A stretch of DNA of 59,443 nucleotides from Bacteroidaceae bacterium (GTDB lineage Bacteria > Bacteroidota > Bacteroidia > Bacteroidales > Bacteroidaceae). Both the position numbers and the translations under genes were made by a program. A model generated the notes under the pieces. The model was not told the origin of the DNA, searched no databases, and saw nothing but the letters and a program-made list of their open reading frames with translations. Every line of letters starts with the position of its first letter. The stretch's first letter is position 1. Location: positions 1-59,443 of the forward strand of contig JAFRNY010000078.1 of the NCBI GenBank assembly GCA_017429945.1, written 5' to 3'. Positions 16,236 to 42,048 of this stretch are shown here, one piece after another.

Positions 16236-16345
16236 TACGACCGGTCGCATGAGGTTATACGACCGGCCGTGTAGCGCTATACGCCCGTATGTGTTGGCTC
16301 TTGCGCCCGTATGTATAGGCACTTGCGCCCGTATGTCTATTGTGC
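16236..16345. repeat. 22 bp tandem array 3' of the amylase gene
   Basis: Five units start at 16236, 16258, 16280, 16302 and 16324, exactly 22 bases apart. The anchors are TACGACC, TACGACC, TACGCCC, TGCGCCC and TGCGCCC. The first two contain the palindromic cores CGACCGGTCG and CGACCGGCCG. The last unit overlaps the amylase stop codon (16337-16339), so the array begins at the gene end and runs into the 3' region. The core is shared with the array after rodA. Confidence 0.8.
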
Positions 16346-18097
16346 GTAGTCGGCCGTGATGTCGCGGAAGGTGAATTTGCCGTCGACACGGTTGCCGATC
16401 TCATAGTAGCGGTCGGAGGTGATTCCGGTTATGTCCACCGTCTGAGCCTCTGAAGAGCCTTGGTCGAAGATGACGTTCATCGAGTAGCCGGTTTCAGCCG
16501 AGACGTTGAAGGTGCGGTAGTAGAACGTAGCGCCCTTGACATCTTTGGTGGCTGTCACTTGCACGCCGGGCCACGCGTCGTCGATATAGAGGTTGCCGTC
16601 CCAGGCGTAGAAGTAAACCTGTGGCCATCCGGGGTCTTTGAGGTGAATGGTGATGTCCTTCTTCTCCACGGTGTCCTCCTTGAAGGTTGGCGTGGGCATA
16701 GCCTGCCAGGCAGCAACGAGTGCATCGGCGAGCCAGTAGCTGTATTGGGGCCCTTCGAGGATCTTGGTGAAGCCCTCGCCTATCTCGGTGGCGGCGTTGG
16801 CCTGGTCGCCAAGCCACACGACGAGCTGTCCGTTGGAGCCCTCGACCTTGGCGGCATAGAATGCGGCGTTGGAGCGGTACTGCACAGCGGCGCTGGTGTT
16901 CTTGATGCCAGCTACCTGACGAGCTTGTATCATGCGTGCAATCTCGTGCTTGTAGGCTTTCCAGTGTTTCGAGAATACACAAGGTGTGCCGGGCATGGCA
17001 AGGAGGTAAGCGTTGGCAGCGAGGGTGTCGCGGCGGATGGGGTCTTGCGGCGACGATGCCGAGCGGTACTCAGTGTCGTGGTTCTCAACGAAGGTGACTG
17101 CATACTGGCGGTAGGCGCCACCATTGTAATTGGAATAGGCGAGAGGCCAGTTGCCATCGTTCTGCTGACCGAGGCGTGCCCAGTTCTGATTGTTTACGGC
17201 GTTGCGCACGACGTAGCGGAACTGGAAGTCGAAGGCTGCCGAGGACTTCTCGGTGGCGTCGATCCATGCGCGTATGGTGGAGGTGCCGTCCCAGCACTCG
17301 CCTACGCTGAACTCGGGGCGTGCGCTCTCGTTGTAGAGCTTGGTGAACGAGCCGGAATAGCCTTTGACCATATCGTAGCGGAAACCGGTGTAGCCGAGGT
17401 CCTTAAGCAGGAAGCCTAGGTAAGCCTTGACGATAGTCTGGACGTTCTCGCTCTTGTGGTCGAGGTCGCGCATTCCGCCCCACCCTTCGCCGGTGTCGAG
17501 ATTTGAGGAGAGGCTGTAGCCGTTGTTCTGCGCCCACACGGCTGTCTCACCGCCATCGTCGTTGGCGCAGATATCGGTCGAAACCATCTCGTAAGTTACA
17601 CCGTTGTACGTCTCCTTTGGGAAATCGACCCAGTTGCTGACGTTGCGACGGTGGTTGATGACCACGTCGGCAATGGTGCCTATGCCTTTCTGTTTGAAGG
17701 TGCGGATGAGCGAGCGCAGCTCAGCTTCGGTGCCGAAGGAACTGTTGTAGTCGTTGAACCACCAGAGGTCGTCGTAGCCCATGCTGGTGCCACCGCAGTT
17801 GCCGCTCTGCGGAATCCACACGAGCGAGAAGTAGGGCGCGAAATCATCGGCCTGAGCCTCGAGGCGCGTCCACTGGGCATCGCCAAAGCCGTCCCAGTAG
17901 AAGCCTTGGAGCATGACGCCGCCATAGTCGGCAGGCCAGCCTACGATGGGTTCGGGGGTAGGCTCAGGTGTGGGAGTTGGAGTGGGCGTGGGTGTGGGCT
18001 CGGGTGCGGGCGTCACAGGGTCGTCGCCGCCACAACCTACGGCCATGAAAGCCGTTAAACTGAGTGCAAGCAGCGAGAGAAGAAAATGCTTTTTCAT
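16337..18097 (-). CDS. Outer-membrane GH13 alpha-amylase lipoprotein (SusG-like role)
   Basis: Endo-acting alpha-amylase that cleaves alpha-1,4 bonds of starch at the cell surface. The 586 residues start with a lipoprotein signal ending at C22 (MAVGC), followed by a Pro-Thr linker of about 28 residues. The GH13 barrel shows region I DVVINH (144-149), the nucleophile D242 in GFRYDMVKGY, the acid/base E267 in SVGECWDG and the transition-state Asp D341 in FVENHDTE. A C-terminal module of about 100 residues (DITIHLKDPGWPQVYFYAW) resembles a starch-binding domain. It lies 121 bases after the susF-like gene, in the same direction, and probably belongs to the sus operon as the SusG counterpart, although its linker and domain order differ from classical SusG. 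22 bp arrays lie on both sides of the gene. Confidence 0.92.
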   Translation of the reverse strand: MKKHFLLSLLALSLTAFMAVGCGGDDPVTPAPEPTPTPTPTPTPEPTPEPIVGWPADYGGVMLQGFYWDGFGDAQWTRLEAQADDFAPYFSLVWIPQSGNCGGTSMGYDDLWWFNDYNSSFGTEAELRSLIRTFKQKGIGTIADVVINHRRNVSNWVDFPKETYNGVTYEMVSTDICANDDGGETAVWAQNNGYSLSSNLDTGEGWGGMRDLDHKSENVQTIVKAYLGFLLKDLGYTGFRYDMVKGYSGSFTKLYNESARPEFSVGECWDGTSTIRAWIDATEKSSAAFDFQFRYVVRNAVNNQNWARLGQQNDGNWPLAYSNYNGGAYRQYAVTFVENHDTEYRSASSPQDPIRRDTLAANAYLLAMPGTPCVFSKHWKAYKHEIARMIQARQVAGIKNTSAAVQYRSNAAFYAAKVEGSNGQLVVWLGDQANAATEIGEGFTKILEGPQYSYWLADALVAAWQAMPTPTFKEDTVEKKDITIHLKDPGWPQVYFYAWDGNLYIDDAWPGVQVTATKDVKGATFYYRTFNVSAETGYSMNVIFDQGSSEAQTVDITGITSDRYYEIGNRVDGKFTFRDITADYAQ

Positions 18098-18130
18098 TAC
18101 GTTGTGTCTCTTTATGTTTAGAAAAGTAAA

Positions 18131-18212
18131 CCCTTAAGAGTTCATTGCAGAACCCTTAAGGGCTTTGGCCAAAAGTCTCAAGAGTCTCATGAGGGAACCC
18201 TTAAGACTTCAG
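18131..18212. repeat. 22 bp tandem array (CCCTTAAG) 3' of the susF-like gene
   Basis: Anchors CCCTTAAG at 18131 and 18153, GTCTCAAG at 18175 and CCCTTAAG at 18198, spaced 22, 22 and 23 bases. The core CTTAAG is a perfect dyad. The array fills most of the 121-base gap between the stop of the susF-like gene (18219) and the amylase start (18097). It has the same period as the arrays at 16236 and 41829 but an unrelated sequence. Confidence 0.75.
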
Positions 18213-18218
18213 TGAAAA

Positions 18219-19643
18219 TTACTCGATAGTACAGTAGATATTGTCGCTTGTCTTACGCGTAGGATACAACTTGATGGTCGCCCCAACAGCCGAGATATTA
18301 TCTCCATTGCCGACAAGATTGTTCAGTTCGCCACCAAGGTTAATTCCCCAATCGTTGTTGGCCGTGAATTTCCAGCCATTGGCTGTCACGCCGGCACCTG
18401 TTATTACATAGCAGAAGTTAGCGGCATCCCATGTCATCTGTTGGGCATCGTCACCAGGATTCCATCCATTGAAGTCACCTACCAGATTCATGTTAGTGAT
18501 GCGCACGGCGTTGAGTGTGAATGCTGACAAGTCGAGGCTGACGAAATAGACGCCTTCACCAGCCGTAGCCTTGATGTTGCCACCGCCGTCAGCAAAATCG
18601 CCACTGATGCCACCCGTAAAGGTGCCGCTGTTAATCTCGTTGTCCCAAGAGCCTGCTTCACGTTGGAATTTGAACTCGTTGCCCCAACCGTTCGGATCGG
18701 CGCAATAGACATAGCCCGTATAGAGGCCGTCGCCCTGATGTGCCAACTTCTGGTCGGCTACGCTCCAACCATCTGTAGCGCCGATGAAGTAGACAAATGG
18801 TTTGAAGTTGACTGCGGTATAGGCCCATGTGAGGTCTAACATATTAAAGGTAAGGTCGTAGAAGAGTGCACCTTCGACCGCCGTAATGACGAAGTTACCG
18901 CCGACATTATGGTAGGCGAATGTGCCATCCGCTTCACCAGCCGCCAGGCACTCACTCCAGTCTCCGCCGAGACCACTCTCAGGTGTCAACTTGAACTCGA
19001 CATTACTTCCGTCTTCGGGTGCAGGAATACGCAAAGTGAAGGTCGGGTTATCATAAGGATCGGAACCGTCGTTAGTAAGTTTGTAAGTAACGTCGGTGTT
19101 GTTCCAGCCATTAATGCTTCCAGTAAGGTAATAGGCGGGCTCGATGACTGGAGCCACAGGCGTCACCGTGAGAGCTGAAGTCACCGTGTTGGACTTCAGA
19201 CACGTTGTCTTTGCTTCTGAAGTGAACACCTTGGCATAGACGTAGAGCACAATGCTACGTGCTGATGGGCGCATACCATAGAAAGCATTTGTAGCGTCCT
19301 GAAGATCAGCGACAGCAACAAAACCATTACTTGCGATATCGACATCATATGTGGCTTCGATGGTTTCTTCGCCACTTTCATCTGTGGTGATCTTGGCCAG
19401 TTTGCCCACGAGGGAGTCAAACACATAGCCATCTGGGGCGGCAATCTCTGGCGTTACGACTTGAATGCTGTCACTTGCCACCTCGGCGAGATTTACCTCC
19501 ACGGCTCCTAATGAAGAAGACAGGAGGACCTCCACGGCTTCTTCGGGCTCGTTGCTCTGAGGACTCGACCAGTTGTCGAAGTCCTCGTTGCAAGAGATTG
19601 TCAGAGCTGCTATTGCACAGCCATATAATAATTTCTTATACAT
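18219..19643 (-). CDS. SusF/SusE family starch-binding outer-membrane lipoprotein
   Basis: A 474-residue surface lipoprotein with its lipobox ending at C18 (AALTISC). The N-terminal part is beta-rich with two Ig-like stretches. Three repeated carbohydrate-binding modules follow, each with a glycine- and aromatic-rich core: YYLTGSINGWNN, VYFIGATDGWSV and MNLVGDFNGWNP. Such modules bind alpha-glucans in SusE and SusF. The protein ends in DNIYCTIE. It is fourth in the susC-D-E-F order, 41 bases after the susE-like gene. It has no catalytic role; it holds starch at the cell surface. The family assignment is strong, and naming it SusF rests on position and on the number of modules. Confidence 0.88.
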   Translation of the reverse strand: MYKKLLYGCAIAALTISCNEDFDNWSSPQSNEPEEAVEVLLSSSLGAVEVNLAEVASDSIQVVTPEIAAPDGYVFDSLVGKLAKITTDESGEETIEATYDVDIASNGFVAVADLQDATNAFYGMRPSARSIVLYVYAKVFTSEAKTTCLKSNTVTSALTVTPVAPVIEPAYYLTGSINGWNNTDVTYKLTNDGSDPYDNPTFTLRIPAPEDGSNVEFKLTPESGLGGDWSECLAAGEADGTFAYHNVGGNFVITAVEGALFYDLTFNMLDLTWAYTAVNFKPFVYFIGATDGWSVADQKLAHQGDGLYTGYVYCADPNGWGNEFKFQREAGSWDNEINSGTFTGGISGDFADGGGNIKATAGEGVYFVSLDLSAFTLNAVRITNMNLVGDFNGWNPGDDAQQMTWDAANFCYVITGAGVTANGWKFTANNDWGINLGGELNNLVGNGDNISAVGATIKLYPTRKTSDNIYCTIE

Positions 19644-19684
19644 ATTCTAATAAATGTAAAATGTGAAATGTAAAATGTTAATGA

Positions 19685-20875
19685 CTAATTGCTAACTCTC
19701 ACGAAGCGGAAGAGACCAGTAATGTCATTGAAGTAGATGTTGAAGTTTCCGCCCTCGGAGATATAGAGGTTATCGCCATTGCCGACTCCTGTGCCATAGT
19801 AACCGTAGGAGAGGGTAGAGAGCTTGCCACCCCAGTTGAAGTCCCATGAGCCAGACTGCTTGAACTTCACTTCGGCACCTGTCTCGAGATCGATATTGAT
19901 GAACCAGTCATGGTTCTCACAGACAGTTGTGGCAGGAGCCAATGCCGTGTCACCCCAGCCATTGAACGATCCTGAGATTGCGATGCCATCAAAGACTTTG
20001 GCAGAGCCAGAGTACTCTGTGATGACGGGCGTGTTGGTCTTGGTGTCAAGCGTGATAAGATAAACGCCATCGCTCGGCACGCTGATATTGGCAGAGCCGC
20101 CATCGTTGACCTTATACTTGCCGAAGCTGTCGCCCTGACCGATTTGCACAGCCCAGTTATCATCGGGCGAGCCGCGGAATTTGAAGCCAGCGGAGGTAAG
20201 ATAGCCAGCCCAGAGAATCTCGCCAGTTCCAGTAGCATAATCATAGTCGCTGTTCTGGCTGAGGTACATGGGCAGACAGCCCGTAGGAACTGCATTACCC
20301 CAAGATCCGTCGCCAATGCAAGATCCAGTCAGATACCACAAGATCGGGTCGGCAGCGACGAGAGTCTGGAAATAAGGAGATGTCTGTACCTTGACGACAT
20401 TAGAGTAGATAACATCGGTGGATGGTGTCTGAGCCGAAATGCGGAAAAAGACATTAACAAGTGCAGGCACGTCAGCTGCAGATGAAGCCCCAAGCAACGT
20501 CATAAGGTTACGGTTGATATCGGCGACATCAATGGAATCGCGGCACACGCTGAGCGGTTCGTCCTCCTGAATGTAGTTGGGAACGGTATTGCCTTCCTCA
20601 TCAACAGTTGATGTAAACTGTTCATCGAGCGCATATTGGACGTAGTAAGTCACAGCAGCGGGGAAGCCACCATAGTCTGGTTGCGACCAAGTGATGACGA
20701 GCGGATCTTTAGTATTTTCAAGATCCAGCACGGAAGCTGCCACATACGGAGTGTTAAGCACGAAGCTCTCTGGCATATGGAGGGTTGGATTGGAACCGTT
20801 GTCGTCAGAACATGACGAGAAAGCGACCAGACCGAGCCCAACAAGCATAGGTGCAATGATATATTTAAGTTTCAT
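19685..20875 (-). CDS. SusE-like starch-binding outer-membrane lipoprotein
   Basis: A 396-residue lipoprotein with lipobox ending at C22 (LVAFSSC). Residues 30-160 form the fibronectin/Ig-like N-terminal domain of the SusE family (FVLNTPYVAASVLDL, LVITWSQPDYGG, VTYYVQYALDE). Two starch-binding modules follow: WYLTGSCIGDGSW and IAISGSFNGWGD. It ends in TGLFRFVRVSN. It is third in the sus operon, 21 bases after susD. It is shorter than the susF-like protein because it has two binding modules rather than three. Its role is non-catalytic starch binding next to SusC/SusD. Confidence 0.88.
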   Translation of the reverse strand: MKLKYIIAPMLVGLGLVAFSSCSDDNGSNPTLHMPESFVLNTPYVAASVLDLENTKDPLVITWSQPDYGGFPAAVTYYVQYALDEQFTSTVDEEGNTVPNYIQEDEPLSVCRDSIDVADINRNLMTLLGASSAADVPALVNVFFRISAQTPSTDVIYSNVVKVQTSPYFQTLVAADPILWYLTGSCIGDGSWGNAVPTGCLPMYLSQNSDYDYATGTGEILWAGYLTSAGFKFRGSPDDNWAVQIGQGDSFGKYKVNDGGSANISVPSDGVYLITLDTKTNTPVITEYSGSAKVFDGIAISGSFNGWGDTALAPATTVCENHDWFINIDLETGAEVKFKQSGSWDFNWGGKLSTLSYGYYGTGVGNGDNLYISEGGNFNIYFNDITGLFRFVRVSN

Positions 20876-20896
20876 AGTTGTTACTGTTTTTTCTGA

Positions 20897-22489
20897 TTAA
20901 TAACCAGCATTCTGCTTGAGATTCGTATTCACGTCGAGGTCTGTTGCGGGCAAACCATAGACATTGAAGTTAGAAGAGAAGGAACCACCTGTGGGAACGC
21001 CATTCATGAATTCCCAGAGGTACTCGGATTGCCCGCCAAATCGTCCAAAGCGTACGAGGTCCATACGACGACGTCCTTCGAACCAGAATTCACGTGACCA
21101 CTCATCGAGGACATCGTCGAGTGTATAGGTGGCTTCCTGCTTTGCATTGGCGCGTTCACGCAGCTTGTTGATATAGGCTGTGGCCGTCGGGTTCTGTCCG
21201 TTCTTGCGGATAGAAGCCTCAGCGTATGTAAGGTAAGCCTCAGCAACACGAAGCAACGGCAGGTCAGTGTCTACGAAATTAATAGCGCTGGCAGCCTTGC
21301 CGTCGGAACGCACATTACGGAACTTGACGCAACTAAAGCCTTCGTCGGCCTTCTCTTCCGTGAGATACTGCTTATAGCCCTTGCTGTAGAAGAGAGCGCG
21401 GTCATCATTGGCCTTAGCTATCATCTCGGCGAGGTCGTCGGTCTGTGGTGCTTCAGTACTGCCAAAGAATTTCTCGACGAGTTTACCTTTCACGCGAGCA
21501 CACTTGGTCCAGCTGTGATTGGTTCCAGAAGGAACGGCCATATCTTCATTCTCGCCATAGCTTGCGAACACGAGGAAGTTCATCGCGTCATAGCTTTGGG
21601 TCTGCAGTCCGTCCATCAGGGTAGGAAGAACAGCTTCGTACTGTGCACCATTCTCGTTGTTGTCAGCAAGGAAGAGAAGTTGGTAAGCCGAGTAACCGTT
21701 CTTACCATTCATGTTGAGGTGGTAGTAGGAACTATTGATTACTTTCTCTGCATATTCCATAGCCTCGGCCCATTTCTCGGCACCAGTGTAAACCTGAGCA
21801 TTGAGGTAGAGGCGGGCCAGAAGCAGGTTGGCAGCAGCCTTGTCCACACGGCCATAAGTGTTGGTGCCATCGTCGGCCAAGTCATTATAGACAGCTTTCA
21901 ACTCAGACTCGCAGAAGGCGAACAGTTCGGGACGGGTGTAGTAAGGAGCAAGTTCTGCCGAAACTTTCGTCGACATGGGGCCTGCACCATAGAGGTCCAT
22001 CACGTACATATAATTGAGCGCACGGATGAGCCGAACCTCAGCCACCTTACGCGCATCGCTGACCTGCTCGATGTATGAATTGCACAATGTAATCGTGAAG
22101 TACAAACGATAGTACATGGCAAACGAAAAAGTATTGCTCGCCGAGAAGTCGTTGTGAAGCAACTCAGGCACACCAGCGTCAGACCAAAGCCATCCTGCCT
22201 CATCGGAAGTGAACTCGTTGAGCGACCAAGCCATACGATAGAAACCCGACATACCCTCGTTATCGAAAATCTCACGTGGGATATCACCGTTGCCTGCGCC
22301 ACCCGCCTGACCCGTGAGGGCAAAGCTGGCATAAATCTTGTTGAAGAGGGCATCCTCGTCAAGCACCATTGTCTGCTGAGGGTTGATGGGTGTGACATCA
22401 AGGTCGCCTACGCATGAGGTCAAAGTCCCACCAACAGCCATCGCAACGATGGTTGCAGACAGAAAAGATTTCTTTATACTGATTTTCAT
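20897..22489 (-). CDS. susD: SusD/RagB-type starch-binding outer-membrane lipoprotein
   Basis: A 530-residue lipoprotein (lipobox LTSC, C26) that caps the SusC channel and binds the glycan. Family features are the N-terminal DLDVTPINPQQTM segment, the TPR-like helices (VAEVRLIRALNYMYVMDLYG; AAANLLLARLYLNAQVYTG) and the C-terminal LPLLRVAEAYLTYAEA, EFWFEGRRRMDLVRFG and GLPATDLDVN. It follows susC by 27 bases and precedes the susE-like gene by 21. Together with SusC it forms the transport lid-and-barrel unit. Starch specificity is inferred from the amylase, the SusE/F-like proteins and malQ around it. Confidence 0.93.
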   Translation of the reverse strand: MKISIKKSFLSATIVAMAVGGTLTSCVGDLDVTPINPQQTMVLDEDALFNKIYASFALTGQAGGAGNGDIPREIFDNEGMSGFYRMAWSLNEFTSDEAGWLWSDAGVPELLHNDFSASNTFSFAMYYRLYFTITLCNSYIEQVSDARKVAEVRLIRALNYMYVMDLYGAGPMSTKVSAELAPYYTRPELFAFCESELKAVYNDLADDGTNTYGRVDKAAANLLLARLYLNAQVYTGAEKWAEAMEYAEKVINSSYYHLNMNGKNGYSAYQLLFLADNNENGAQYEAVLPTLMDGLQTQSYDAMNFLVFASYGENEDMAVPSGTNHSWTKCARVKGKLVEKFFGSTEAPQTDDLAEMIAKANDDRALFYSKGYKQYLTEEKADEGFSCVKFRNVRSDGKAASAINFVDTDLPLLRVAEAYLTYAEASIRKNGQNPTATAYINKLRERANAKQEATYTLDDVLDEWSREFWFEGRRRMDLVRFGRFGGQSEYLWEFMNGVPTGGSFSSNFNVYGLPATDLDVNTNLKQNAGY

Positions 22490-22516
22490 TGTTGTAGTTA
22501 TTTAGGATGGGACGTT

Positions 22517-25500
22517 TTAGAAGTTAAGATTCACACCAAGAATGCCAATGAATGGACGCGGATAGATAGCTCCATCATAGCCTCCGCTGACTTCGGGGTC
22601 GATTCCCTTATACTTGGTGATTGTGAATACGTTCTGTGCCGTTGCATAGACGCGGCCATTGATGCTACTCTTGCCAATATGGTTAAACGAATAGCCCAGC
22701 GTGATATTATCACACTTGAGGAAAGAGGCATTCTGGACGAAATAGTCGGACTGTGACGCGACGTTGTTCATTGCCTGCCAATTCTTATCAAGCTGATATT
22801 TGACGACGTTGTGCCAGGTGTTGCCGTAGTAGACGTATGGCTTAGATACATCGGCACGATCGCCAGCTTCGATGGAATTGTACATATAGTTGTTCAGGCT
22901 TGCACGCAGTGAGAAGCCGAAATCCCAATTCTTGTAGGTCACCTTGGAGGAGAGTCCCATGATGACATCTGCATCGCCCTTCTTGTAGAAATACTTATCC
23001 TGTTCATTGATGACGCCATCAGCATTGCGGTCGACATACTCGCCGTAGCGTGGCTGACCATTTTCGCCGTAGACCTGTTGATAAACATAGAACGCACTGA
23101 CTGGATGACCTTCGGCGTAAGCCATTACGGCTCCAGAACCACCCGAGCCAATGGCTGCAAAGGCGTGGCCTATAGGAGCGCCATCGGTGGAAATGAGCTC
23201 ATCAATTTTGTTCTTATTCCACGTGAGGTTGTATCCGATTTCCCAATACCAATCCTTCGTCTGGATGGGGCGATAGACAAGTTGGGTTTCAACGCCCTGA
23301 TTGTGGAGCGAACCGATGTTGCTCATAATGCGAGTTGAGAAGTTGGAACCCGCAGCAAGATTAACCGTATTCAGAAGGTCTGTCGTCTTACGATAGTAGT
23401 AGTCGACACTGGCCGTAAAGCGATTCTTGAAGAATCCGAGGTCTATTCCTGCATTATAGGTCGTTGTCTTTTCCCACGTCAGTTCGGGGTTATAACCCTC
23501 GGGGCGATAGGTAATGCCTGTTCCTGTTATAGGATAATAGGCCCCTGAGCCGCTGACTGTATAGTTTGCGATGTACTTGTAGTCGCCAATGCCTTCCTGC
23601 TGGCCAGTGATACCCCAGCCGAGACGCAGTTTGGCATCAGATACATTCTTGGCATCTTTGAGGAAGTTCTCTTCGTTGATTCTCCATGCAAAAGCTGCAG
23701 AGGGGAAGAGTCCCCAGCGGTTGCCTTTGCTGAAACGAGATGAACCATCGTCACGAAGGGTGAAGGTGACAAGGTAGCGGTCGAGCAGACCGTAGTTCAC
23801 GCGGCCGAAGAATGAGACGAGGTAGTTCTCTGACTTATAGAGTGAGTTCTTGGTATCGAAGTAGTCGGGATTAACAAGTTCGCCTGGATGTGTCAGATGA
23901 GTATGCGGATAGTAGAGGGGATAGGAGTAGTCCGTCTTGATATGGAAATGCTGCCACTCATAACCAGCCATGACATCAATGTGATGAACGTCTTTGATAT
24001 CTTTCAGATACTGAGCGTAAGCGCTGAGCGAGAGGTTAGAGCGATCTTTCTCGTTCCAGCCCTTGCTGCCATAGTAGATATTGTTGGAGTAGTCATAAGG
24101 TAGCACTTCCTTGTCGCTGTGGCCATGGCCAAGGTTCATGCCGCCGTTGACGTGGAGATGCAAATCCTCGAAGCCATGAATCTTATAGTCGATTTCCAAA
24201 TTGCCAAGAATATCACGACCTTTTCCGATATTACTCTGGTTCAGAAGAGTGGCCACGGGGTTAGAGGCCGCAGTGTTAATGTAGCTGTGCGTCCAAGTTG
24301 CATCGCCGAAATCGGCTGTCGTTGGCCACTGCCAGAATCCTCCATACTCAGCGGCCTCGGGGCGGTTGTCATAGACAGGCTTTGTAGGATCCATAAAGAG
24401 AGCCTTACCTACAGCATCGGTATTGGCAAATGAATTGCGTTCAAAAGCCACCTTGGCATTGAGGTTGACGCGGAGATGATCATCGAGGAAACTCGGTGCA
24501 AGGTTCACGCTGGCCGTGTAACGATTGTAGTTAGAGGTTTTGAGCGTACCTTCCTGATGTGTATAACCAACACTCACGCGGTAAGGCATGTTCTTGAAAC
24601 CACCCGTCAGCGTGACATTGTGGTCAGTGTTGACACCTGTGCGGTAGATTTCGTTCTGCCAATCGGTGTTAGCGAACAGGTGCTTTCCAGAGACATCGTA
24701 ATAGCCGAGATTGGCGTATTCATCAGTAGCCTGCCAACCCGAATCGTCGCCTTCAAAGCCCGAAATGCGTTGCGTGAACTTCATATATTCACTTGCGCTC
24801 AGAACGTCAAGCTTCTTCACGTTCTTGCTGAAGCTGACATTGCCGCTATACGAAACCTTCGGAGCAGAGTTAGCACGACCTTTTTTCGTGGTGATAATAA
24901 TCACGCCATTAGAGGCGCGGCTACCGTAGATGGCAGTTGCCGAAGCGTCTTTCAGCACGGTGAAACTCTCAATGTCGGCGGGATTCACCATGGAGAGTGC
25001 GTTGGCTGAGCCTTCGTTACCGCCATAGGCATCGAGTGCTAAGCCGTCAATCACAATCAGAGGATCTCTAGAGGCATTAAGCGACGAGCCACCGCGTATG
25101 CGGATAGTAGCGCCACCACCAGGTGTACCATCACCAGGGATTACGCTTACACCAGCAATCTTGCCCTGAATCATGTCCTGAGCGCTTGTCTGCAACCCAT
25201 GGTTCATCTCGTCGGGCTTAATTGCAATAACAGAACCCGTCAGGTCATTCTTCTTGACGGTACCGTAGCCGATGACAACCACGTCCTCAAGGACTTTGGA
25301 ATCCTCCTGAAGTGTGACATTCACTACAGGGCGGGCTGCTACGGTCACCGTCTTAAAGCCCATGAACGAGATGGTAAGCTGGCTGCCTTGAGGCGCCGTG
25401 ATAGCAAAATTACCGTCGAAGTCTGATGTAGTGCCGCCTTCTTGTCCAATCACGCGGACGGTAGCACCCATGACGGGTTCGCCGGTATCATCCTTGACAT

Positions 25501-25603: not shown

Positions 25604-25706
25604 GCTTGTTGTTTAATTTAGTTAGTTAAATATGTTTGTATTCATTCTTGCTGCCGAAAGCCTGCCCTCAAAACGTGCAGGGGCGGATTACGTCAATTTG
25701 ATGCTG

Positions 25707-25847: not shown

Positions 25848-25866
25848 CAGCTGAAAGCACCCGATT

Positions 25867-30418: not shown

Positions 30419-30477
30419 TGGCAGACTCCTTCAGGAAGCACAGTCAGCAAGGCCAATAGCAAAGCACAAGCCTTCTA

Positions 30478-30511
30478 AGTAGCCGAGACACACGTCGCGG
30501 CTACTTTTTTT
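30478..30511 (+). terminator. Rho-independent terminator after malQ
   Basis: AGTAGCCG pairs with CGGCTACT (30478-30485 and 30498-30505), followed by seven T. It lies 60 bases past the malQ stop. Confidence 0.88.
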
Positions 30512-30543
30512 GTAGCACCAAGAAGGGTTTCCAAAATCACATT

Positions 30544-30603
30544 GTGACGTCGTCGCGTCACATCGTGACGCCATCACGTCACAACGTGACGCGATGACGT
30601 CAC
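30544..30603. repeat. 21 bp tandem array of GTGACG-N6-CGTCAC dyads
   Basis: Three units, 30544-30561, 30565-30582 and 30586-30603, each an 18 bp dyad GTGACG-N6-CGTCAC, repeat every 21 bases. The six central bases differ in each unit while both arms are perfect. A half-unit TCAC stands just before the first (30537-30540). It lies in the 517-base gap between malQ and lptG, after the malQ terminator. The rest of that gap holds a second hairpin (30745-30781) and the lptG promoter, and no gene. Confidence 0.9.
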
Positions 30604-30744
30604 AACGTTATTTCATCTTTACTCCGAGAAGCAAGAGATAAGCCGTCGAGGCTTGAACATCTTATTGCCTTGCCGATAATATGAAAATGCATCTTCTCCG
30701 ACCTTAAGCCTGCGCCACACAACAGGCTAGTAAATCGCCATTGG

Positions 30745-33595: not shown

Positions 33596-33647
33596 AAAGT
33601 TTCAATTATTTTTTACTTTTCATGTTACTCTTTTCATTTATAATCAC

Positions 33648-33655
33648 TACCTTTG
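33648..33655 (+). promoter_or_regulatory. -7 promoter element of the aminotransferase gene
   Basis: TACCTTTG, 28 bases before the ATG at 33684. The 88-base gap after ribBA therefore holds a separate promoter. Confidence 0.6.
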
Positions 33656-33683
33656 CCGCGGAATAACAAAACAAAAGAAACAA

Positions 33684-34877: not shown

Positions 34878-34881
34878 AGAT

Positions 34882-35472: not shown

Positions 35473-35560
35473 ACTTCCCTTTCAGGGAGTAGTAGTCAAC
35501 GAACAAGTATTGACTACAAGAGTATAACAATGACAATAAAGTTGCAATAACATTAAGAAT

Positions 35561-35595
35561 CTACTCCCCTCTCTCCGGGAGAGGCTGGGGAGTAG
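35561..35595. repeat. Palindrome between purH and mreB
   Basis: CTACTCCCC (35561-35569) and GGGGAGTAG (35587-35595) enclose an inner CTCTCC/GGAGAG hairpin. There is no T-run, so it is not a classical terminator. It occupies the gap where the lost 3' half of purH would be expected. Confidence 0.75.
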
Positions 35596-35613
35596 ACCCG
35601 ATTTAAAATTACT

Positions 35614-36633
35614 ATGGGATTTTTCTCTTTCACTAAAGAAATTGCGATGGACCTTGGTACAGCCAACACCATCATTATATCCGAAGGCAAGGTTGTCGTA
35701 GATGAGCCCTCCGTGGTAGCACTCGACCGCCACACCGAGAAGATGATAGCCGTAGGCGAAAAAGCCAAGCTGATGTACGAGAAGGTGCACGCCGGCATCA
35801 AGACCATACGCCCGCTGCGCGATGGCGTCATCGCCGACTTCAATGCCTGCGAGCAGATGATGCGCGGCCTCATCAAGATGGTGCCTACGGGCAAGCGTAT
35901 CTTCACACCGTCGCTCCGCATGGTCATTGGCGTGCCATCAGGCAGCACCGAAGTAGAACTGCGTGCCGTGCGCGACTCTGCCGAGCATGCCGGCGGCCGC
36001 GAGGTCTACCTCATCTATGAGCCTATGGCGGCTGCCATTGGTATCGGTCTCGATGTCGTAGCCCCTGAAGGCAACATGATCGTTGACATAGGCGGCGGCT
36101 CCACAGAGATTGCCGTCATCTCGCTCGGTGGCATCGTTGCCGACAAGAGTCTGCGCACCGCCGGCGACGATCTCACCGCCGACATTCAGGAGTACATGAG
36201 CCGCCAGCACAACGTACGCGTGAGCGAACGTATGGCCGAGCGCATCAAGATAAACGTAGGCGCCGCACTCACCGACCTGGGCGAGAACGCCCCCGAGGAC
36301 TACATAGTGCATGGACCTAACCGCATCACAGCGCTGCCTATGGCCGTGCCCGTGTGCTACCAGGAGATAGCCCACTGCCTCGAGAAGACCATCGCCAAGA
36401 TCGAGACGGCCGTGCTCAACGCCCTCGAGGAGACACCGCCAGAGCTTTATGCCGACATCGTCCGCAATGGTATCTACCTCACCGGCGGCGGCGCACTGCT
36501 GCGCGGTCTCGACAAGCGCCTGACCGACAAGCTCAACATCCCGTTCCACATCGCTGAGGACCCCCTCCACAGCGTGGCCAAGGGCACGGGCGTAGCTCTC
36601 AAGAACATCCACAACTTCTCGTTCCTGATGTAG
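35614..36633 (+). CDS. mreB: Rod shape-determining protein MreB
   Basis: A bacterial actin that forms membrane-bound filaments guiding lateral wall synthesis. The 339 residues carry the actin-fold nucleotide motifs DLGTANT (phosphate 1), DIGGGSTEIAVISLGG (phosphate 2) and the adenosine motif GGGALLRGL, plus the amphipathic N-terminal start MGFFSFTKEIAMD. It heads the mreB-mreC-mreD-mrdA-rodA run, with mreC starting six bases after its stop. Length is typical. Confidence 0.97.
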   Translation: MGFFSFTKEIAMDLGTANTIIISEGKVVVDEPSVVALDRHTEKMIAVGEKAKLMYEKVHAGIKTIRPLRDGVIADFNACEQMMRGLIKMVPTGKRIFTPSLRMVIGVPSGSTEVELRAVRDSAEHAGGREVYLIYEPMAAAIGIGLDVVAPEGNMIVDIGGGSTEIAVISLGGIVADKSLRTAGDDLTADIQEYMSRQHNVRVSERMAERIKINVGAALTDLGENAPEDYIVHGPNRITALPMAVPVCYQEIAHCLEKTIAKIETAVLNALEETPPELYADIVRNGIYLTGGGALLRGLDKRLTDKLNIPFHIAEDPLHSVAKGTGVALKNIHNFSFLM

Positions 36634-36639
36634 CAGTCC

Positions 36640-37494
36640 ATGCGTGCCCTCCTGGATTTCATAGCCAAGTACCACCATTGGATGCTGTTTGTTGTACTGG
36701 AAGTGGTAAGCCTCGTGCTGCTCTTCCAGTTCAATCATTATCAGCATAGCCTATGGCTCACGGCGACCACCGAGACCGTAAGCAAGGCCCATGAGGCCGA
36801 AGCGAGCGTCTTGCGCTACCTCACGCTCGGGCGCGAGAATGCAGCGCTGACGCGTCGTAACCTCATCTTAGAGTACAACTTGGCTGAAGCTACGCGCCAG
36901 ATAGAGATCCTCTCGCACGACTCCACGGGCACCGAGCGCCTGCAAGCCGATCGCATGGAAGGCATCGAACTGATTCCGGTCAAGGTCGTCACGAACAGCG
37001 TCATGCGTCGCGACAACCTCATCACCATAAGTGCCGGCGCCGCCGATGGTGTGCGCCAGGAGATGGGCGTGGTCTGCGGCACGGGACTTGTCGGTATCGT
37101 CTTCCTCACGTCAGAGCATTTCTCCATAGTGTTGCCGCTGCTCAACAGCCGCTCGCACATCAGCTGCCGCCTGCGTGGCTCCGACTATTTCGGCCACCTC
37201 GTATGGGACGGCATCAATCCGCTCTACGCCCAACTCGACGACATCCCACGCCACGCGCGCTTCAACATAGGCGACATTGTTGAGACCAGCGGTTTCAGCT
37301 CCGTATTCCCTCCCGGCATCTTTGTAGGTAAAGTCGAGGCCATCGGCAACAGCGACGATGGTCTGAGCTACAAACTGCGCGTTCATCTGGCCACTGACTT
37401 CACGGCTCTGCAAGACGTCAGCGTCATAGCCCAACAGTTCCAGCCTGAGGTGCGCGAGCTCGAGCATCAGGCCGACTCAATGTTGGCGCATTAA
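36640..37494 (+). CDS. mreC: Rod shape-determining protein MreC
   Basis: A 284-residue bitopic inner-membrane protein of the elongasome. A single membrane segment near the N-terminus (WMLFVVLEVVSLVLLFQF) is followed by a helical region and then the periplasmic double beta-barrel: NSVMRRDNLITISAGAADGVRQEMGVV, GLVGIVF, LNSRSHISCRLRG, FNIGDIVETSGFSSVFPPGIFVGKV. It links MreB and MreD to PBP2 and RodA. The start lies six bases past the mreB stop and the length is normal. Confidence 0.95.
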   Translation: MRALLDFIAKYHHWMLFVVLEVVSLVLLFQFNHYQHSLWLTATTETVSKAHEAEASVLRYLTLGRENAALTRRNLILEYNLAEATRQIEILSHDSTGTERLQADRMEGIELIPVKVVTNSVMRRDNLITISAGAADGVRQEMGVVCGTGLVGIVFLTSEHFSIVLPLLNSRSHISCRLRGSDYFGHLVWDGINPLYAQLDDIPRHARFNIGDIVETSGFSSVFPPGIFVGKVEAIGNSDDGLSYKLRVHLATDFTALQDVSVIAQQFQPEVRELEHQADSMLAH

Positions 37495-37566
37495 CTATTT
37501 ACTGCCGAACCTAAGGCGTAAGGATTAAACACATTAGATTAAAACATCGGATAAAGCCCCGATTCA

Positions 37567-38085
37567 ATGCTCGTCATTTTTCTTAAACGTACGTTGTGGC
37601 TCGTTGCCCTCGTGGCGGCGCAGATGATGGTGTTCAACTACATCCATCTCTTTGGCTACGCCACTCCCCTGCCCTACGTCTACCTGCTACTGCTTTTCCC
37701 CCTCGACTCGTCGCGGTGGAGCGTACTGCTATGGGGCTTTGTCTGCGGACTGCTGTGTGACTTCGCATCGCTCACGCCCGGGCTTGGTGCTGCATCGATG
37801 ACACTCACGGCCTTCATACAGCCCCTGTTGCTGCGAGCCATGGCCCCCAAGGATGCGCTCGAGGATATGCAAGCCTCCTACCACACCCTCGGCGGTTGGG
37901 GCTACGTGCGCTATGCCGCCATCCTCACGCTGCTGTTCACGCTCACTTATTTCTTACTTCTGAGTTTCTCGTTCTTCCACGCCATTGACCTGGCCATATC
38001 TTTCGCCTCAAGCTGGCTGCTGACTCTCGTGCTCTGCCTTGCCATGGAGAAGGTGAGAGGCAGGGAGGTGAAAAGTGAAAAATGA
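37567..38085 (+). CDS. mreD: Rod shape-determining protein MreD
   Basis: A 172-residue polytopic inner-membrane protein with about five hydrophobic segments (LVALVAAQMMVFNYIHLFG, LPYVYLLLLFPLD, SVLLWGFVCGLLCDF, YAAILTLLFTLTYFLLLSFSFF, WLLTLVLCLAM). Sequence is poorly conserved in this family; identity rests on the topology, the length and the position between mreC and mrdA. The gap to mreC is 72 bases. Confidence 0.88.
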   Translation: MLVIFLKRTLWLVALVAAQMMVFNYIHLFGYATPLPYVYLLLLFPLDSSRWSVLLWGFVCGLLCDFASLTPGLGAASMTLTAFIQPLLLRAMAPKDALEDMQASYHTLGGWGYVRYAAILTLLFTLTYFLLLSFSFFHAIDLAISFASSWLLTLVLCLAMEKVRGREVKSEK

Positions 38086-38218
38086 CGAACTGCTTCGCAG
38101 TCACAGAGCACACAGAGGAGACAGAGAGCACAGAGAGGAGACATAGAACAGAGATAGAGAGCATACAGGGTGGAAAGAGCAACGTGGAAAGTGGACAGTA
38201 AAAAACGTAGAATAAAGA
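38086..38218. repeat. Purine-rich imperfect repeat gap between mreD and mrdA
   Basis: The 133-base gap holds a short hairpin (ACTGC/GCAGT, 38090-38102) followed by imperfect CACAGAG-type repeats from about 38100 to 38160 (for example CACAGAGGAGACAGAGAG then CACAGAGAGGAGACATAG). No gene or clear promoter is seen. An in-frame TAA lies just upstream of the mrdA start. Confidence 0.6.
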
Positions 38219-40057
38219 GTGTCTTTCTCAGATCTGACATATAGGAAATACGTGCTTGGCACTGCGGCGCTCATCGTAGTCATCATCTACGTTGTGCGCC
38301 TTTTCTCGTTGCAGCTGCTCTCCGACGACTACCGTGCCCGCGCCGACTCCAATGCCCTGATGCGCCGCATTCAGTTCCCTGCCCGCGGCGCCATCACCGA
38401 CCGGCGCGGCAAGCTGCTCGTCTACAACCAACCAGCCTACGACATCATGGTCGTCATGCAAGAACAGGACGGCGTCGACACCCTCGGCCTGTGCCGCAGC
38501 CTCGGCATCACGCGCGAATGGTACATAAAACGAATGGATGAGATCCGCCGCACGAAAGGCTATTCGCCCTACACGCAACAGGTGTTTATGAATCAGCTGT
38601 CGATGCGCGAATTCAGCAGTTTCCAGGAGAAGCTCTTCCACTTCAGAGGTTTCTACATTCAGAAGCGCAGCATCCGGCAGTACACCTACCCTTACGCCGC
38701 ACACATCCTCGGCGACGTGGGCGAAGTGAGCCCTGCCGACATCGAGGCGGATGACTACTATCGCTCGGGCGACTACATAGGCACGCAGGGCGTGGAGCGC
38801 AGCTATGAGCGCCAGTTGCGCGGCATCAAGGGCTCCGAGATTCTCATACGCGATGTCCACGGCCGCATCAAAGGACGCTATCAGGACGGGCGCTTCGACC
38901 AGAAGCCCGTGCCAGGCAAGAACCTCACCCTGAGCATCGACCTTGAGCTGCAGAAGCTCGGCGAGCGTCTCATGAAAGGCAAGCTGGGCAGTATCGTGGC
39001 CATAGAGCCATCGACGGGCGAAATTCTTTGCATGGTGACATCACCCACCTACGACCCGCGCACCATGGTAGGGCGCCAGCGCGGCAAGCGCCATCGCGAG
39101 CTCTCGCTCGACCCGATGAAACCGCTGCTCAACCGCGCCATCATGGGCACCTACCCCCCAGGCTCCACCTTCAAGACCTCGCAGGCGCTCACCTTCCTCG
39201 AGGAAGGCATCATCACTCCGCAGACGGCTTTCCCATGCTCCCACGGTTTCCGCTTCCGCGGCCTCAAGGTTGGCTGCCACGGCCACGGCTCGCCACTGCC
39301 CCTCATCCCCGCCATAGGCACCTCGTGCAACGGCTACTTCTGCTGGGGCCTCTACTATATGCTTGGCAACCGCAGCAAATATCCCACCGTGCAGGATGCC
39401 CTCACCACGTGGAAGGACTATATGGTATCAATGGGCTTCGGCTACAAGCTCGGCGTAGACCTTCCCGGCGAGAAGCGTGGTTTCATCCCCAATGCCGACT
39501 ACTACGACAACGCCTACAAGGGCTCGTGGAACGGTCTCACAGTGATTTCCATATCCATAGGTCAGGGCGAAGTCACTCTGACGCCCCTGCAGATAGCTAA
39601 CCTAGGCGCCACTATAGCCAACCGCGGTTGGTTCATCACGCCGCACATCGTAAAGAGCGTCCAGGACGAAGACCTCGACACGCTCTACCTGAAGCGCCGC
39701 TACACCAAAGTCTCACGCACGAACTACGAGACCGTCGTCGCCGGCATGCAACGCGCCGTAGAGAACGGCACCTGCCGCGTGGCCAACAACCCGTGGTACG
39801 TCACCTGCGGCAAGACGGGCACGGCGCAGAACCGCGGCCACGACCACTCCGTCTTCATGGGCTTCGCACCGCGCGACAATCCTCAGATAGCCGTCGCCGT
39901 GTACGTTGAGAACGGCGGTTGGGGCGCCACCTACGGCGTGCCCATCGGAGCCCTCATCATGGAACAGTACATCAACGGCCACCTCTCGCCCGCCAGCGAG
40001 AAGAAAGCCGAAGTCTTCTCCAACCGAACCATCAACTATGGCAGCACCACAAGATAA
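38219..40057 (+). CDS. mrdA: Penicillin-binding protein 2, elongasome transpeptidase
   Basis: A 612-residue class B penicillin-binding protein that cross-links lateral-wall peptidoglycan with RodA. A GTG start is used because an in-frame stop lies three codons upstream and no ATG precedes the membrane anchor (YVLGTAALIVVIIYVVRLFSLQ). The pedestal holds RGAITDRRGKLLVYNQPAYDI. The transpeptidase motifs are SxxK at S316-T-F-K319 (PPGSTFK), SCN in GTSCNGYFCW, and KTGTAQ with K532. It overlaps the rodA start by 20 bases. Sequence appears complete. Confidence 0.95.
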   Translation: MSFSDLTYRKYVLGTAALIVVIIYVVRLFSLQLLSDDYRARADSNALMRRIQFPARGAITDRRGKLLVYNQPAYDIMVVMQEQDGVDTLGLCRSLGITREWYIKRMDEIRRTKGYSPYTQQVFMNQLSMREFSSFQEKLFHFRGFYIQKRSIRQYTYPYAAHILGDVGEVSPADIEADDYYRSGDYIGTQGVERSYERQLRGIKGSEILIRDVHGRIKGRYQDGRFDQKPVPGKNLTLSIDLELQKLGERLMKGKLGSIVAIEPSTGEILCMVTSPTYDPRTMVGRQRGKRHRELSLDPMKPLLNRAIMGTYPPGSTFKTSQALTFLEEGIITPQTAFPCSHGFRFRGLKVGCHGHGSPLPLIPAIGTSCNGYFCWGLYYMLGNRSKYPTVQDALTTWKDYMVSMGFGYKLGVDLPGEKRGFIPNADYYDNAYKGSWNGLTVISISIGQGEVTLTPLQIANLGATIANRGWFITPHIVKSVQDEDLDTLYLKRRYTKVSRTNYETVVAGMQRAVENGTCRVANNPWYVTCGKTGTAQNRGHDHSVFMGFAPRDNPQIAVAVYVENGGWGATYGVPIGALIMEQYINGHLSPASEKKAEVFSNRTINYGSTTR

Positions 40058-41798
40058 ACCCAAGAGCGTCTTCCAGAGTATCGACTGGATTACCATTCTC
40101 ATCTACGCCGCGCTACTCGCTTTCGGCTGGATGAGCATCTGCGGCGCATGCTACGAATACGGACAGCCGCGCGACCTGCTATCGCTGGCCTCGTTCGACA
40201 CCCGCACAGGCATGCAGCTCGTGTGGATAGGTTCGTCGATAGTCCTGGGCGCCATCATCCTACTGCTCGACGACCGAATATTCGACACCTTCGCATACTT
40301 CATCTACGGCATCTTCATCGTGCTGCTGTTCATCACGCCCTTCCTGGCCCACGACATCAAAGGCTCCCTCTCATGGATCAAGATAGGCCCCTTCAGCTTC
40401 CAGAGCGCCGAGTTCGCGAAGTTTGCCACAGCCCTGGCCCTGGCTAAATTCATGAGTCCATACGGCTTTAAGCTGCAAGGGTCGTGGAAGAACATGAGCA
40501 TCGCCATCGCCCTGATGATGCTGCCCATGGTGCTCATCGTCATGCAGAAGGAGACGGGATCTGCCCTCGTCTATTTCAGCCTCTTCCTCATGCTCTACCG
40601 CGAAGGCATGCCCGGTTTCATACTCTTTGCCGGCATCTCGGCCGCAGCCTATGTCGTCATAGGCCTGCGCTTCGACCAGACACTCATCCTGGCGCAGTCC
40701 ACCAGCCTTGGTGAAGTGCTCGTGATGCTGATGATAGTAGCCTTCGTGGCCGCCCTCATCATCATCTACTGCCGCCCCTCGGCACTCGTAGGCGAGAGCG
40801 GTGTGGACCCGCGCAACACACGGCAGCCCTATCGCCGGGCCCTCAGCTCAACGTTTGCCGTAGCCCTGCCTCTGATGCTTGCCGTACTCGCCCTGGCTTA
40901 CATCATCTTCCCCACACTGGCAGCTTACCACGAACTGACTTCGGCACTACAGCCTGAGGCCGTGGCCGAGGCTGCCGAAGCTGCCGCCGAAGCAGCGACG
41001 TCGCTCTCGGCCGAAGCCTCGCAGACCATCGCTGCCGACGCAGGCGAGGCCGCAGAGGCCGCTACTGCTGCAGGCCCCCTCTTCACCATCTCTCACGACA
41101 GCTTCCTGGCACCACTCATCGACCACATCCGCCCCTTCAACCTCTCGCCCATACTCGTAGCCATAACACTGCTGCTCGCCCTGCGCCTCTTCTGGATAGG
41201 CTTCAGCAACCAGGTCTACCGCTACGCCTACATCGCCCTCTTCGCCCTGGCCTCGATGACCGTGTTCTTCTCGGCCAACATGCTCGTTGACCACCTTGCG
41301 CCCCACCAGCAGAAGCGCATTCAAGTGCTGCTGGGCCTGCAGGACGACCCCAACGGCGTGGGCTACAACGTCATCCAGGCCAAGATAGCCATCGGCTCCG
41401 GCGGCCTCGAGGGCAAAGGCTTCCTCAACGGCACGCAGACCAAGCTTAAGTACGTGCCCGAGCAAGAGACCGACTTCATCTTCTGCACCGTAGGCGAGGA
41501 GCAGGGCTTCATTGGCTCCACGGCCGTGCTCGTGCTCTTCCTGCTGCTGATGTGGCGCCTCATCCACGTGGCCGAGCGCCAGCCCTTCGCCTTCGGGCGC
41601 GTCTATGGCTACTGCGTCTTCTCGGTCATATTCTTCCACGTGCTCATCAACATTGGCATGGTGCTCGGTCTGATGCCAGTAATCGGCATCCCCCTGCCCT
41701 TCTTCAGCTACGGCGGCAGCTCGCTCTGGGGCTTCACCCTCCTGCTGTTCATCTTCCTGCGCATCGACGCGGGCCGCAGCCGCTACGTCAGGAAATAA
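40038..41798 (+). CDS. rodA: RodA SEDS-family peptidoglycan glycosyltransferase with an alanine-rich insert
   Basis: Inner-membrane SEDS glycosyltransferase that polymerises lipid II with PBP2. The start is ATG 40038 (MAAPQDKPKS) inside the end of mrdA; the longer upstream frame is a shadow of mrdA. The 586 residues show SEDS motifs: GSLSWIKIGPFSFQSAEFAKF, QKETGSALVYF, and near the C-terminus EQETDFIFCTVGEEQGFIG and GIPLPFFSYGGSS. Between about 303 and 348 is a low-complexity loop made largely of Ala and Glu (AEAAEAAAEAA). RodA in related bacteria is usually nearer 480 residues, so this loop and its flanks are extra. A strong hairpin and a 22 bp array follow the stop. Confidence 0.93.
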   Translation: MAAPQDKPKSVFQSIDWITILIYAALLAFGWMSICGACYEYGQPRDLLSLASFDTRTGMQLVWIGSSIVLGAIILLLDDRIFDTFAYFIYGIFIVLLFITPFLAHDIKGSLSWIKIGPFSFQSAEFAKFATALALAKFMSPYGFKLQGSWKNMSIAIALMMLPMVLIVMQKETGSALVYFSLFLMLYREGMPGFILFAGISAAAYVVIGLRFDQTLILAQSTSLGEVLVMLMIVAFVAALIIIYCRPSALVGESGVDPRNTRQPYRRALSSTFAVALPLMLAVLALAYIIFPTLAAYHELTSALQPEAVAEAAEAAAEAATSLSAEASQTIAADAGEAAEAATAAGPLFTISHDSFLAPLIDHIRPFNLSPILVAITLLLALRLFWIGFSNQVYRYAYIALFALASMTVFFSANMLVDHLAPHQQKRIQVLLGLQDDPNGVGYNVIQAKIAIGSGGLEGKGFLNGTQTKLKYVPEQETDFIFCTVGEEQGFIGSTAVLVLFLLLMWRLIHVAERQPFAFGRVYGYCVFSVIFFHVLINIGMVLGLMPVIGIPLPFFSYGGSSLWGFTLLLFIFLRIDAGRSRYVRK

Positions 41799-41828
41799 GC
41801 GCCTGAAGCCATAGCCGCAAACACATAT

Positions 41829-41867
41829 CCGACCGGTCGTGTACGCCCACACGACCGGTCGGTTTTT
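41829..41867 (+). terminator. Terminator of the mre-rodA operon
   Basis: A 14 bp perfect stem CCGACCGGTCGTGT/ACACGACCGGTCGG with a six-base loop and TTTTT, 31 bases past the rodA stop. It is made from the first two units of the 22 bp array. Confidence 0.85.
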
Positions 41868-42048
41868 GCTATATGACCATTCGTATATACCTACACGACC
41901 GCAGGAATCCTTCTACACGACCAAACAGATATAACAGCACAGCCAGTCGGATTCTACATATCACGCAGTGATATATATAAATCACTTGGTGATATATAGA
42001 ATCTAACCGCAGGACTGACGCTTCCAGACCGGTCGCTTAATCCTTCAC
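41829..42048. repeat. 22 bp tandem array 3' of rodA, about ten units
   Basis: GACC anchors stand at 41831, 41853, 41875, 41897 and 41919, exactly 22 bases apart, continuing as AGCC at 41941, AACC at 42005 and GACC at 42027. In between are two ATCAC-N3-GTGAT dyads 21 bases apart (about 41960 and 41981). The first two units contain the palindrome CGACCGGTCG and together form a perfect stem (41829-41842 with 41849-41862) followed by five T, which will act as the rodA terminator. The array fills most of the 346-base gap between rodA and the convergent gene at 42146; the gap holds no gene. Confidence 0.88.

Follow-up and report, generated by a model that had tools for sequence, protein, structure and literature searches.

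Four short-period arrays in one contig

The 59,443-bp contig JAFRNY010000078.1 of a Bacteroidaceae bacterium (assembly GCA_017429945.1), which is contig 73 of a 2.96-Mb draft in 92 contigs and is called the window below, carries four arrays of short tandem units in the gaps between its genes. A preliminary description, made from the sequence alone, had placed all four 3' of genes and had proposed that their period of 21–22 bases is kept while their core changes. Direct reading and repeat finders recovered the four arrays at these places, the coordinates being right to about 10 bases, with periods of 22, 22–23, 21 and 22/21 bp. The RodA protein encoded in the window is nearest to those of rumen Bacteroidaceae/Prevotellaceae metagenome-assembled genomes.

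Array A (16235..16336, 102 bp, minus strand; first given as 16236–16345) consists of about five 22-bp units (4.6 copies, period 22, score 38) running from ACATACGGGCGCAAG to CGACCGGTCGTAT, and starts at the stop codon of an alpha-amylase gene identified by Pfam (16337–18097, minus strand). Dispersed repeats adjoin it (about 15906–15982 and 16148–16205) and have copies in the array-holding gaps of loci L018 and L227. Array B (18128..18212, minus strand), known from direct reading and repeat finders, is made of CTTAAG-core units 3' of a SusF-like gene of the minus strand and ends 6 bp from its stop. Its centres, counted from the sequence, lie at about 18135.5, 18157.5, 18180.5 (a degenerate unit) and 18202.5, giving spacings of 22, 23 and 22 bp; a later, stricter array caller did not call it.

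Array C (30537..30608, plus strand, period 21, score 37) is built of TCAC-NNN-GTGA units, which together also form one inverted repeat with 37-bp arms that are 86% complementary. It lies 118 bp past the stop of malQ, downstream of a terminator-like hairpin with a T-run (30477..30512, plus strand; arms 30477–30489 and 30494–30506).

Array D starts 27 bp past the stop of rodA and sits between rodA and a convergent gene. Its first part (41826..41940, from repeat finders and direct reading) is made of 22-bp units, opens with two CGACCGGTCG cores 22 bp apart and includes a two-unit intrinsic terminator of rodA at 41829..41867 (plus strand), recognised from its arms, with a 14-bp stem, a 6-nt loop, TTTTT and a dG of -27.7. 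Its second part (41955..42001, from the array caller and the register test described below) holds two ATCAC-NNN-GTGAT dyads at a distance of 21 bp; 109.5 bp (5x22-0.5) separate the first of them from a CGACCGGTCG centre. Repeat finders also place a lone GACCGGTC core at the far end (42027..42034). Between the same convergent genes, a perfect inverted repeat of 15 bp, bordered by runs of A and T (42087..42123, from its arms; dG -19.8), is called as a plus-strand terminator.

The arrays of this genome with odd-centred (NNN) dyads have period 21 and those with even-centred dyads period 22, the odd-centred ones being array C, the second part of array D, L023 (18681) and L028 (8197). A strict rule by which the pitch equals 18 plus the loop length fits these four and was rejected after it failed at L076 and L157, in other species.

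A sharp genome-wide peak at 22 bp

The source genome was sampled over 844,484 bases (28.5% of it), comprising the window and further stretches. Gene calls came from a simple script based on codon bias, and the gap types given below therefore carry some error. In this sample, intergenic arrays peak sharply at a period of 22 bp (35 arrays, against 6 at 21, 2 at 23, 1 at 20 and 3 at 24), and one shuffle of each gap gave no period-22 array. The genome-wide excess at 21–22 bases, whose absence had been named beforehand as fatal to the proposal, is thus present relative to shuffles. In the first 449 kb, local lag-22 repeats number 742, against 5 in dinucleotide shuffles, and all of them lie in tandem and convergent gaps. 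In a count by gap over the 185 gaps of this stretch, lag-22 hits occur in 5/25 convergent, 15/133 tandem and 0/27 divergent ones (0.0–0.2 per type in shuffles); of 1445 pieces of coding sequence, each 250 bp long, 4 had such hits. A plainer statistic, the match fraction at lag 22, is somewhat raised in divergent gaps too (z 4.7).

The comparison samples, of about 390 kb each, covered 20 genomes of the genus, 20 of other genera of the family, 20 of other families of the order and 20 of the class/phylum; they are not random, since their stretches were picked around rodA/ftsW matches. Period-22 arrays number 15 in the genus sample, 9 in the family, 2 in the order and 0 in the class/phylum sample. 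The 22-bp peak thus recurs in the genus and the family and almost vanishes in the other parts of the phylum that were sampled. When the source genome, the genus and the family are pooled, 59 arrays have period 22, 11 period 21 and 6 period 23.

In the same pool, 22/44-bp arrays occupy 20 of 92 convergent, 33 of 438 tandem and 6 of 108 divergent gaps, so that convergent gaps are richer than tandem (p 0.0002) and divergent ones (p 0.001). The siting at gene ends claimed at the outset stands as a tendency and not as a rule, since no difference is seen (p 0.68) between tandem and divergent gaps. Taken by itself, the family sample shows no enrichment of convergent gaps (1/22; tandem 7/103). Within the tandem gaps of the source genome, 15 of the 22 arrays are closer to the stop codon than to the following start, and three gaps of 112–119 bp between two stop codons are mostly occupied by an array.

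Other short periods occur in these gaps. A distinct peak of 7-bp (heptad) tandem arrays comprises 88 arrays in the 844 kb, 68 of them in tandem gaps, including those at 48567–48629 and 1–28 of the window; they resemble heptamer repeats known from other bacteria. An origin of the 22-bp arrays from heptads was considered and rejected, as the two sets of peaks are separate (7/14/21/28 against 22/44/66). Arrays of 11 bp, of the form (CCCTTTAACTT)n, lie in gaps of L020, L024, L033, L239 and L240, where in many cases an inverted copy (AAGTTAAAGGG) lies upstream of them, and period 11 stands above 10 and 12 bp in the counts for this genome. Because palindromic units produce such signals, the 11- and 33-bp peaks and the half-lattice counts (26/58 in the source genome, 11/29 in genome G052) are not used as evidence.

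One period, a different core word in each species

The rodA gap allows the same place to be compared across the genus, with loci obtained from 30 of 61 genomes, the source genome included. A rule flagged nine of the 30 gaps; two (L121 and L133) were dropped on reading as not resembling 22-bp arrays. The seven remaining loci carry 22-bp arrays 3' of rodA with differing words: GCGACCGTTCGC, CCAGCACGCTG, ACGTGATATTT and an AT-rich TGATTT type. Other members of the family use CAACACGTTG, TGGTCATGACCA, TTGCGCAA and further words.

Whole-genome counts confirm that the core is specific to the species. The word CGACCGGTCG occurs 52 times in the source genome, 22 times in G016 and 0–6 times in the other 59 genomes of the genus. 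Similarly, CCGCACGCGG occurs 537 times in G052, with no more than 10 copies in each of nine other genomes, and CAACACGTTG 474 times in G054, 65 times in G090 and 3–13 times in the other eight. For G052 and G054, spacings were taken from 100 listed sites each. Among these sites, the spacings up to 200 bp are 22 (58), 21 (7) and 44 (1) in G052 and 22 (54), 44 (2) and 66, 78 and 88 (1 each) in G054; single-site clusters make up 4/34 and 13/41, respectively, the figure for exact CGACCGGTCG in the source genome being 21/34. Most sites fall within gaps (25/29 in G052 and 23/27 in G054, over 80 kb sampled in each). The consensus of the unit is symmetric and operator-like in the source genome (ATtCaACCGGTCGcAT) and in G052 (AAtCgCCGCnnGCGGcGaTT). 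Dozens to hundreds of copies of a species-private word at a near-constant pitch suggest a reader acting in trans.

The clusters of G052 (loci L166 and L262–L264) mostly hold exactly three units (19 of the 34 listed). In six tandem gaps of this genome that were read, the first unit has a GT centre, and several arrays open with AAAA and close with TTTT.

Different dyads in one register

The register also extends to dyads of different sequence lying side by side. Six dyad families of the source genome were defined as patterns. For pairs of different families up to 160 bp apart, 39 of 43 centre distances deviate from a multiple of 22 by no more than 1.5 bp. When only the nearest such pair per gap is counted, 15 of 16 gaps are within 1 bp of 22n (p 1e-13). 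The proportion is 12/13 (p 5e-11) without three gaps that hold a dispersed element, and 9/10 (p 3e-8) when three more with a shared ACCGGT centre are also removed. The palindrome GTAAAACAASTTGTTTTAC (38 core sites in this genome, control 0) gives a further case: all 13 CGACCGGTCG/AAACAASTTGTTT pairs up to 250 bp apart, at nine places, are offset by 22n-0.5 (50/52 and 38/38 sites compared). When families are left unnamed, 23 of 58 dyads near the cores of the source genome are on the lattice (6.6 expected uniformly, 2.0 shuffled) and 7 of 29 non-core dyads in G052 (3.3 and 1.4); an earlier version of this test gave 13/36 in the source genome and 3/10 in the genus. In three convergent gaps of G052, the TACATGTA family shows a residual of exactly 0.

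The spacers between cores vary much more than their length. Successive units at exactly 22 bp differ in their spacers by 27% in the source genome, 30% in G052 and 35% in G054, and all 51 consecutive distances up to 100 bp between CGACCGGTCG-type units in the sampled gaps of the source genome are 22 or 44. Outside the sample, one CGACCGGTCG distance of 43 was met, with another palindrome between the two sites. Bacterial indels are roughly a tenth as frequent as substitutions; at this spacer divergence, several misplaced units would therefore be expected without constraint. The idea that the period is kept while the core changes is thus supported: families share a register of about 22 bp, species differ in core at equal period, and spacers differ while spacings other than 22n are rare.

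The arrays might nevertheless be satellite-like DNA that itself serves no function, in which the unit length would be ancestral and sequences would drift and be homogenised in each genome by slippage and ectopic recombination. The likeness of spacers within an array, the many other tandem repeats of these gaps (periods 7, 8, 9 and 11), the uniformity of cores in each genome and the partly related AAACAASTTGTTT neighbourhoods all fit such a history. It accounts poorly for different dyads in one register, which persist in 9/10 gaps after related pairs are dropped, for spacers that differ by 27–35% yet give few spacings off 22n, and for the narrow cluster size in G052. In the source genome and G054, moreover, conservation between loci is lower for spacers than for cores, the cores having been chosen by pattern. 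Slippage, one of three mechanisms first suggested, fails by itself to account for one exact length in different sequences; a satellite-like history is an explanation that we hold to be unlikely, if still to be taken seriously.

Dyads in DNA, more probably than a chain of RNA hairpins

The preliminary description had also proposed a chain of RNA hairpins. A transcribed array would then fold at mRNA 3' ends and terminate transcription or block exonucleases. Some observations agree with this. On either strand, arrays fold better than shuffled sequence (median z for sense/antisense -4.0/-4.4 in convergent and -2.3/-1.5 in tandem gaps), and a terminator made of two units and a T-run is called inside the array at 8/24 convergent and 3/20 tandem ends with arrays, that of rodA included.

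The finer tests speak against it. Sense strands show no excess of G-U over A-C (GT 67 against AC 96 in tandem gaps; 69 against 62 in convergent ones), and the folding energy does not differ between sense and antisense strands in tandem gaps (p 0.67). Spacer pairing is below permutation in the source genome, G052 and G054, that is, there is no covariation of the RNA type; the CTTAAG units of the source genome gave no usable pairs. Such symmetry as exists beyond the core reflects a fixed consensus and no covariation. Rfam gave no match at gathering score in the window and six other loci. Furthermore, hairpins would have no need of an exact 22-nt pitch. The arrays do not replace terminators, since one is called at 17/24 convergent ends with arrays and at 38/72 without; the figures for tandem ends are 8/20 and 45/193. 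The hairpin chain found no support, two-unit terminators at some ends notwithstanding, and an RNA-level element now appears improbable.

Relations to known repeats and mobile elements

That no described element class fits was another initial claim. The nearest classes found are the repetitive extragenic palindromic (REP) sequences with the bacterial interspersed mosaic elements (BIMEs), and BrickBuilt; both differ from the arrays in the features tested, so the claim holds as far as these comparisons go.

REP/BIME sequences are extragenic palindromes found in hundreds of clustered copies, for which roles in termination and in gyrase or IHF binding have been proposed (PMC2817692), and the REP class tagged by CGTC includes Bacteroidetes (PMC3733652). 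Spread by a REP-associated Y1 (HUH) transposase would suit the >100 extragenic copies (537 in G052, 474 in G054; 52 for CGACCGGTCG in the source genome), their clustering with regular spacing, their mixed orientation, their near-palindromic units with an asymmetric centre and their specificity to species. The arrays differ from REP/BIME in their pitch of about 22 bp across cores and in the shared register. Besides, no Y1_Tnp was found at E 0.001 in the drafts of G052 or G054 (89% and 97% complete), the two richest genomes. There is no excess of tags: GTAG and GTGG lie near few clustered units (4 + 4/78 in the source genome, 0 + 1/31 in G052, 1 + 2/25 in G054; 14–15% each of random gap pieces of the source genome), and CGTC lies near 12/78 units of the source genome, equal to 15% of random gap pieces. 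The single Y1 (RAYT-like) transposase gene of the source genome (L146, about 1316–1990; G000:C69) is flanked on each side by sequence that includes GTGCTCGCTGCGCTCGTACC or its complement; its 3.3-kb locus holds no 22-bp array and no CGACCGGTCG-type core. An origin of this kind is scarcely credible.

BrickBuilt of Porphyromonas gingivalis is one 23-nt repeat within one miniature inverted-repeat transposable element (MITE) that has a leader and a tail; 22-nt repeats described earlier from strain W83 are also noted in that report (PMC4596501). These and the other 22/23/41-nt repeats of P. gingivalis resemble the arrays in belonging to the same order and in being intergenic, imperfectly tandem and of similar length (PMC4596501). 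The arrays could accordingly be the inner repeats of a MITE. In the source genome, a dispersed element some 300 bp long, whose ends (TTTTTCACCTTCACC.. / ..GAAGGTGACGGTGAA) are inverted, contains GTAAAACAASTTGTTTTAC and has CGACCGGTCG-like units beside some copies; it was found at six of the ten AAACAASTTGTTT loci read out of 38 sites (L248, L249, L250, L255, L256 and L259, at about 1300–1750). Unlike BrickBuilt, the arrays comprise different sequences at one period, most of them without leader or tail flanks. Within the 844 kb searched, a dispersed-repeat match outside the array occurs in 12 of the 35 array gaps of the source genome and in 60 of 315 other gaps; the remaining 23 array gaps have none, and show neither leader nor tail with the terminal inverted repeats of a MITE. 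Gaps of 112–119 bp consisting mostly of array and a core that differs between species at the same gap are further difficulties, and cargo of a mobile element seems very unlikely as a general explanation. A register common to different sequences was not encountered in the accessible descriptions of REP/BIME or BrickBuilt (PMC2817692, PMC3733652, PMC4596501).

The heptamer repeats TAACTGA of Beggiatoaceae, Cyanobacteria and some Bacteroidetes, which in the genome examined there mostly precede start codons at a short distance, are likewise short tandem repeats of intergenic DNA with a single unit length (PMC4679880). They differ from the arrays in having period 7 and one sequence, and the 7-bp arrays of the source genome form a peak apart. 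Inverted repeats after stop codons have been mapped in Escherichia coli (PMC6060812), and the arrays recall these and intrinsic terminators where two adjacent units are followed by a T-run. They differ from intrinsic terminators in being periodic at a near-constant pitch, in that each arm is itself a dyad and in often lacking a called terminator.

Operators of cooperating dimers or filaments combine a symmetric consensus with a two-turn spacing. The arrays differ from them by their dozens to hundreds of sites per genome and their several cores in one genome. Literature searches, with most subscription papers outside their coverage, returned no recognised description of a 22-bp register with changing cores.

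A putative dimeric protein laid along the DNA

These observations lead to the view, held tentatively and with rather less than even confidence, that the arrays are a family-wide intergenic class in which two to about a dozen short dyads near a 22-bp lattice serve as sites for a putative dimeric protein. Each dyad would be the site of one dimer. The helical pitch of DNA in vivo is near 11 bp, and neighbouring dimers would touch only when two helical turns apart, on the same face of the DNA. Substitutions in the spacer would then be tolerated and indels would not, contact being possible at the two-turn spacing only. A core common to the loci of one genome and replaced in the next species may reflect co-evolution with the DNA-reading surface of the protein. 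From the location of the arrays, a bound array might act as a boundary at the ends of transcription units, either as a roadblock to read-through or as a supercoil anchor; some arrays may additionally supply an intrinsic terminator. Of the three mechanisms first suggested, a multimeric protein is the best reading, although the protein itself is an inference and no candidate binding protein was found. A bolder wording, that in one rumen family of the Bacteroidales the gaps, convergent ones above all, carry a 22-bp dyad ruler whose letters are a fast-changing, species-private code read stepwise by the putative dimer, is possible rather than probable.

Several observations weigh against the dimeric-protein reading. 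Clear dyad symmetry (exceeding the 95th percentile of the column-permuted control) is seen in only 22 of 62 arrays, and the consensus symmetry of G054 is weak outside the core. The compensation test, which asks whether a changed base fits the arm of its own unit rather than that of the next, is mixed, giving 24:7 at positions 4–5 from the dyad centre, 3:10 at positions 1–3 and 38:48 at positions 6–10; inside a unit, too, the flanks of the core show less pairing than permutation gives in the source genome, G052 and G054. Some of the 23 on-lattice dyads of the source genome are degenerate or ACCGGT-centred, only 1 of 6 non-core dyads of G054 is on the lattice, and the earlier version of the test gave 0/6 in the family sample. 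The lattice is not exact, because odd-centred dyads stand at 21 or 21.5 bp and 7 of the 66 listed G052 spacings are 21. The CGACCGGTCG/AAACAASTTGTTT pairs are partly dependent through the dispersed element shared by six of the ten AAACAASTTGTTT loci read, and the flanks of other AAACAASTTGTTT-type sites are partly alike (L035 against L236, 20/24); copying therefore explains part of the GTAAAACAASTTGTTTTAC/CGACCGGTCG register. The spacer positions of G052 are partly conserved between loci, a point that also favours the satellite-like history. Gene ends are favoured and not exclusive, since six divergent gaps hold arrays, one of them between the starts of lon and of a solute-binding-protein gene. 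Hidden RNA genes behind these divergent arrays were rejected, with no tRNA in four loci and no Rfam match in six. Finally, several cores in one genome would be hard for a single protein to read, and would seem to call for related proteins or for a reader with relaxed demands on the letters.

Implications for the family

If selection acts on the spacing, a class of this kind lies beyond the reach of similarity searches, which may explain the absence of a description in the literature searches. The single pitch with many cores offers a natural co-evolution series for finding the protein, and the ending of transcription units and the separation of convergent genes in gut bacteria become a testable question. 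If the reading is true, these arrays would represent a new type of chromosome element, whose defining feature is spacing, not sequence.

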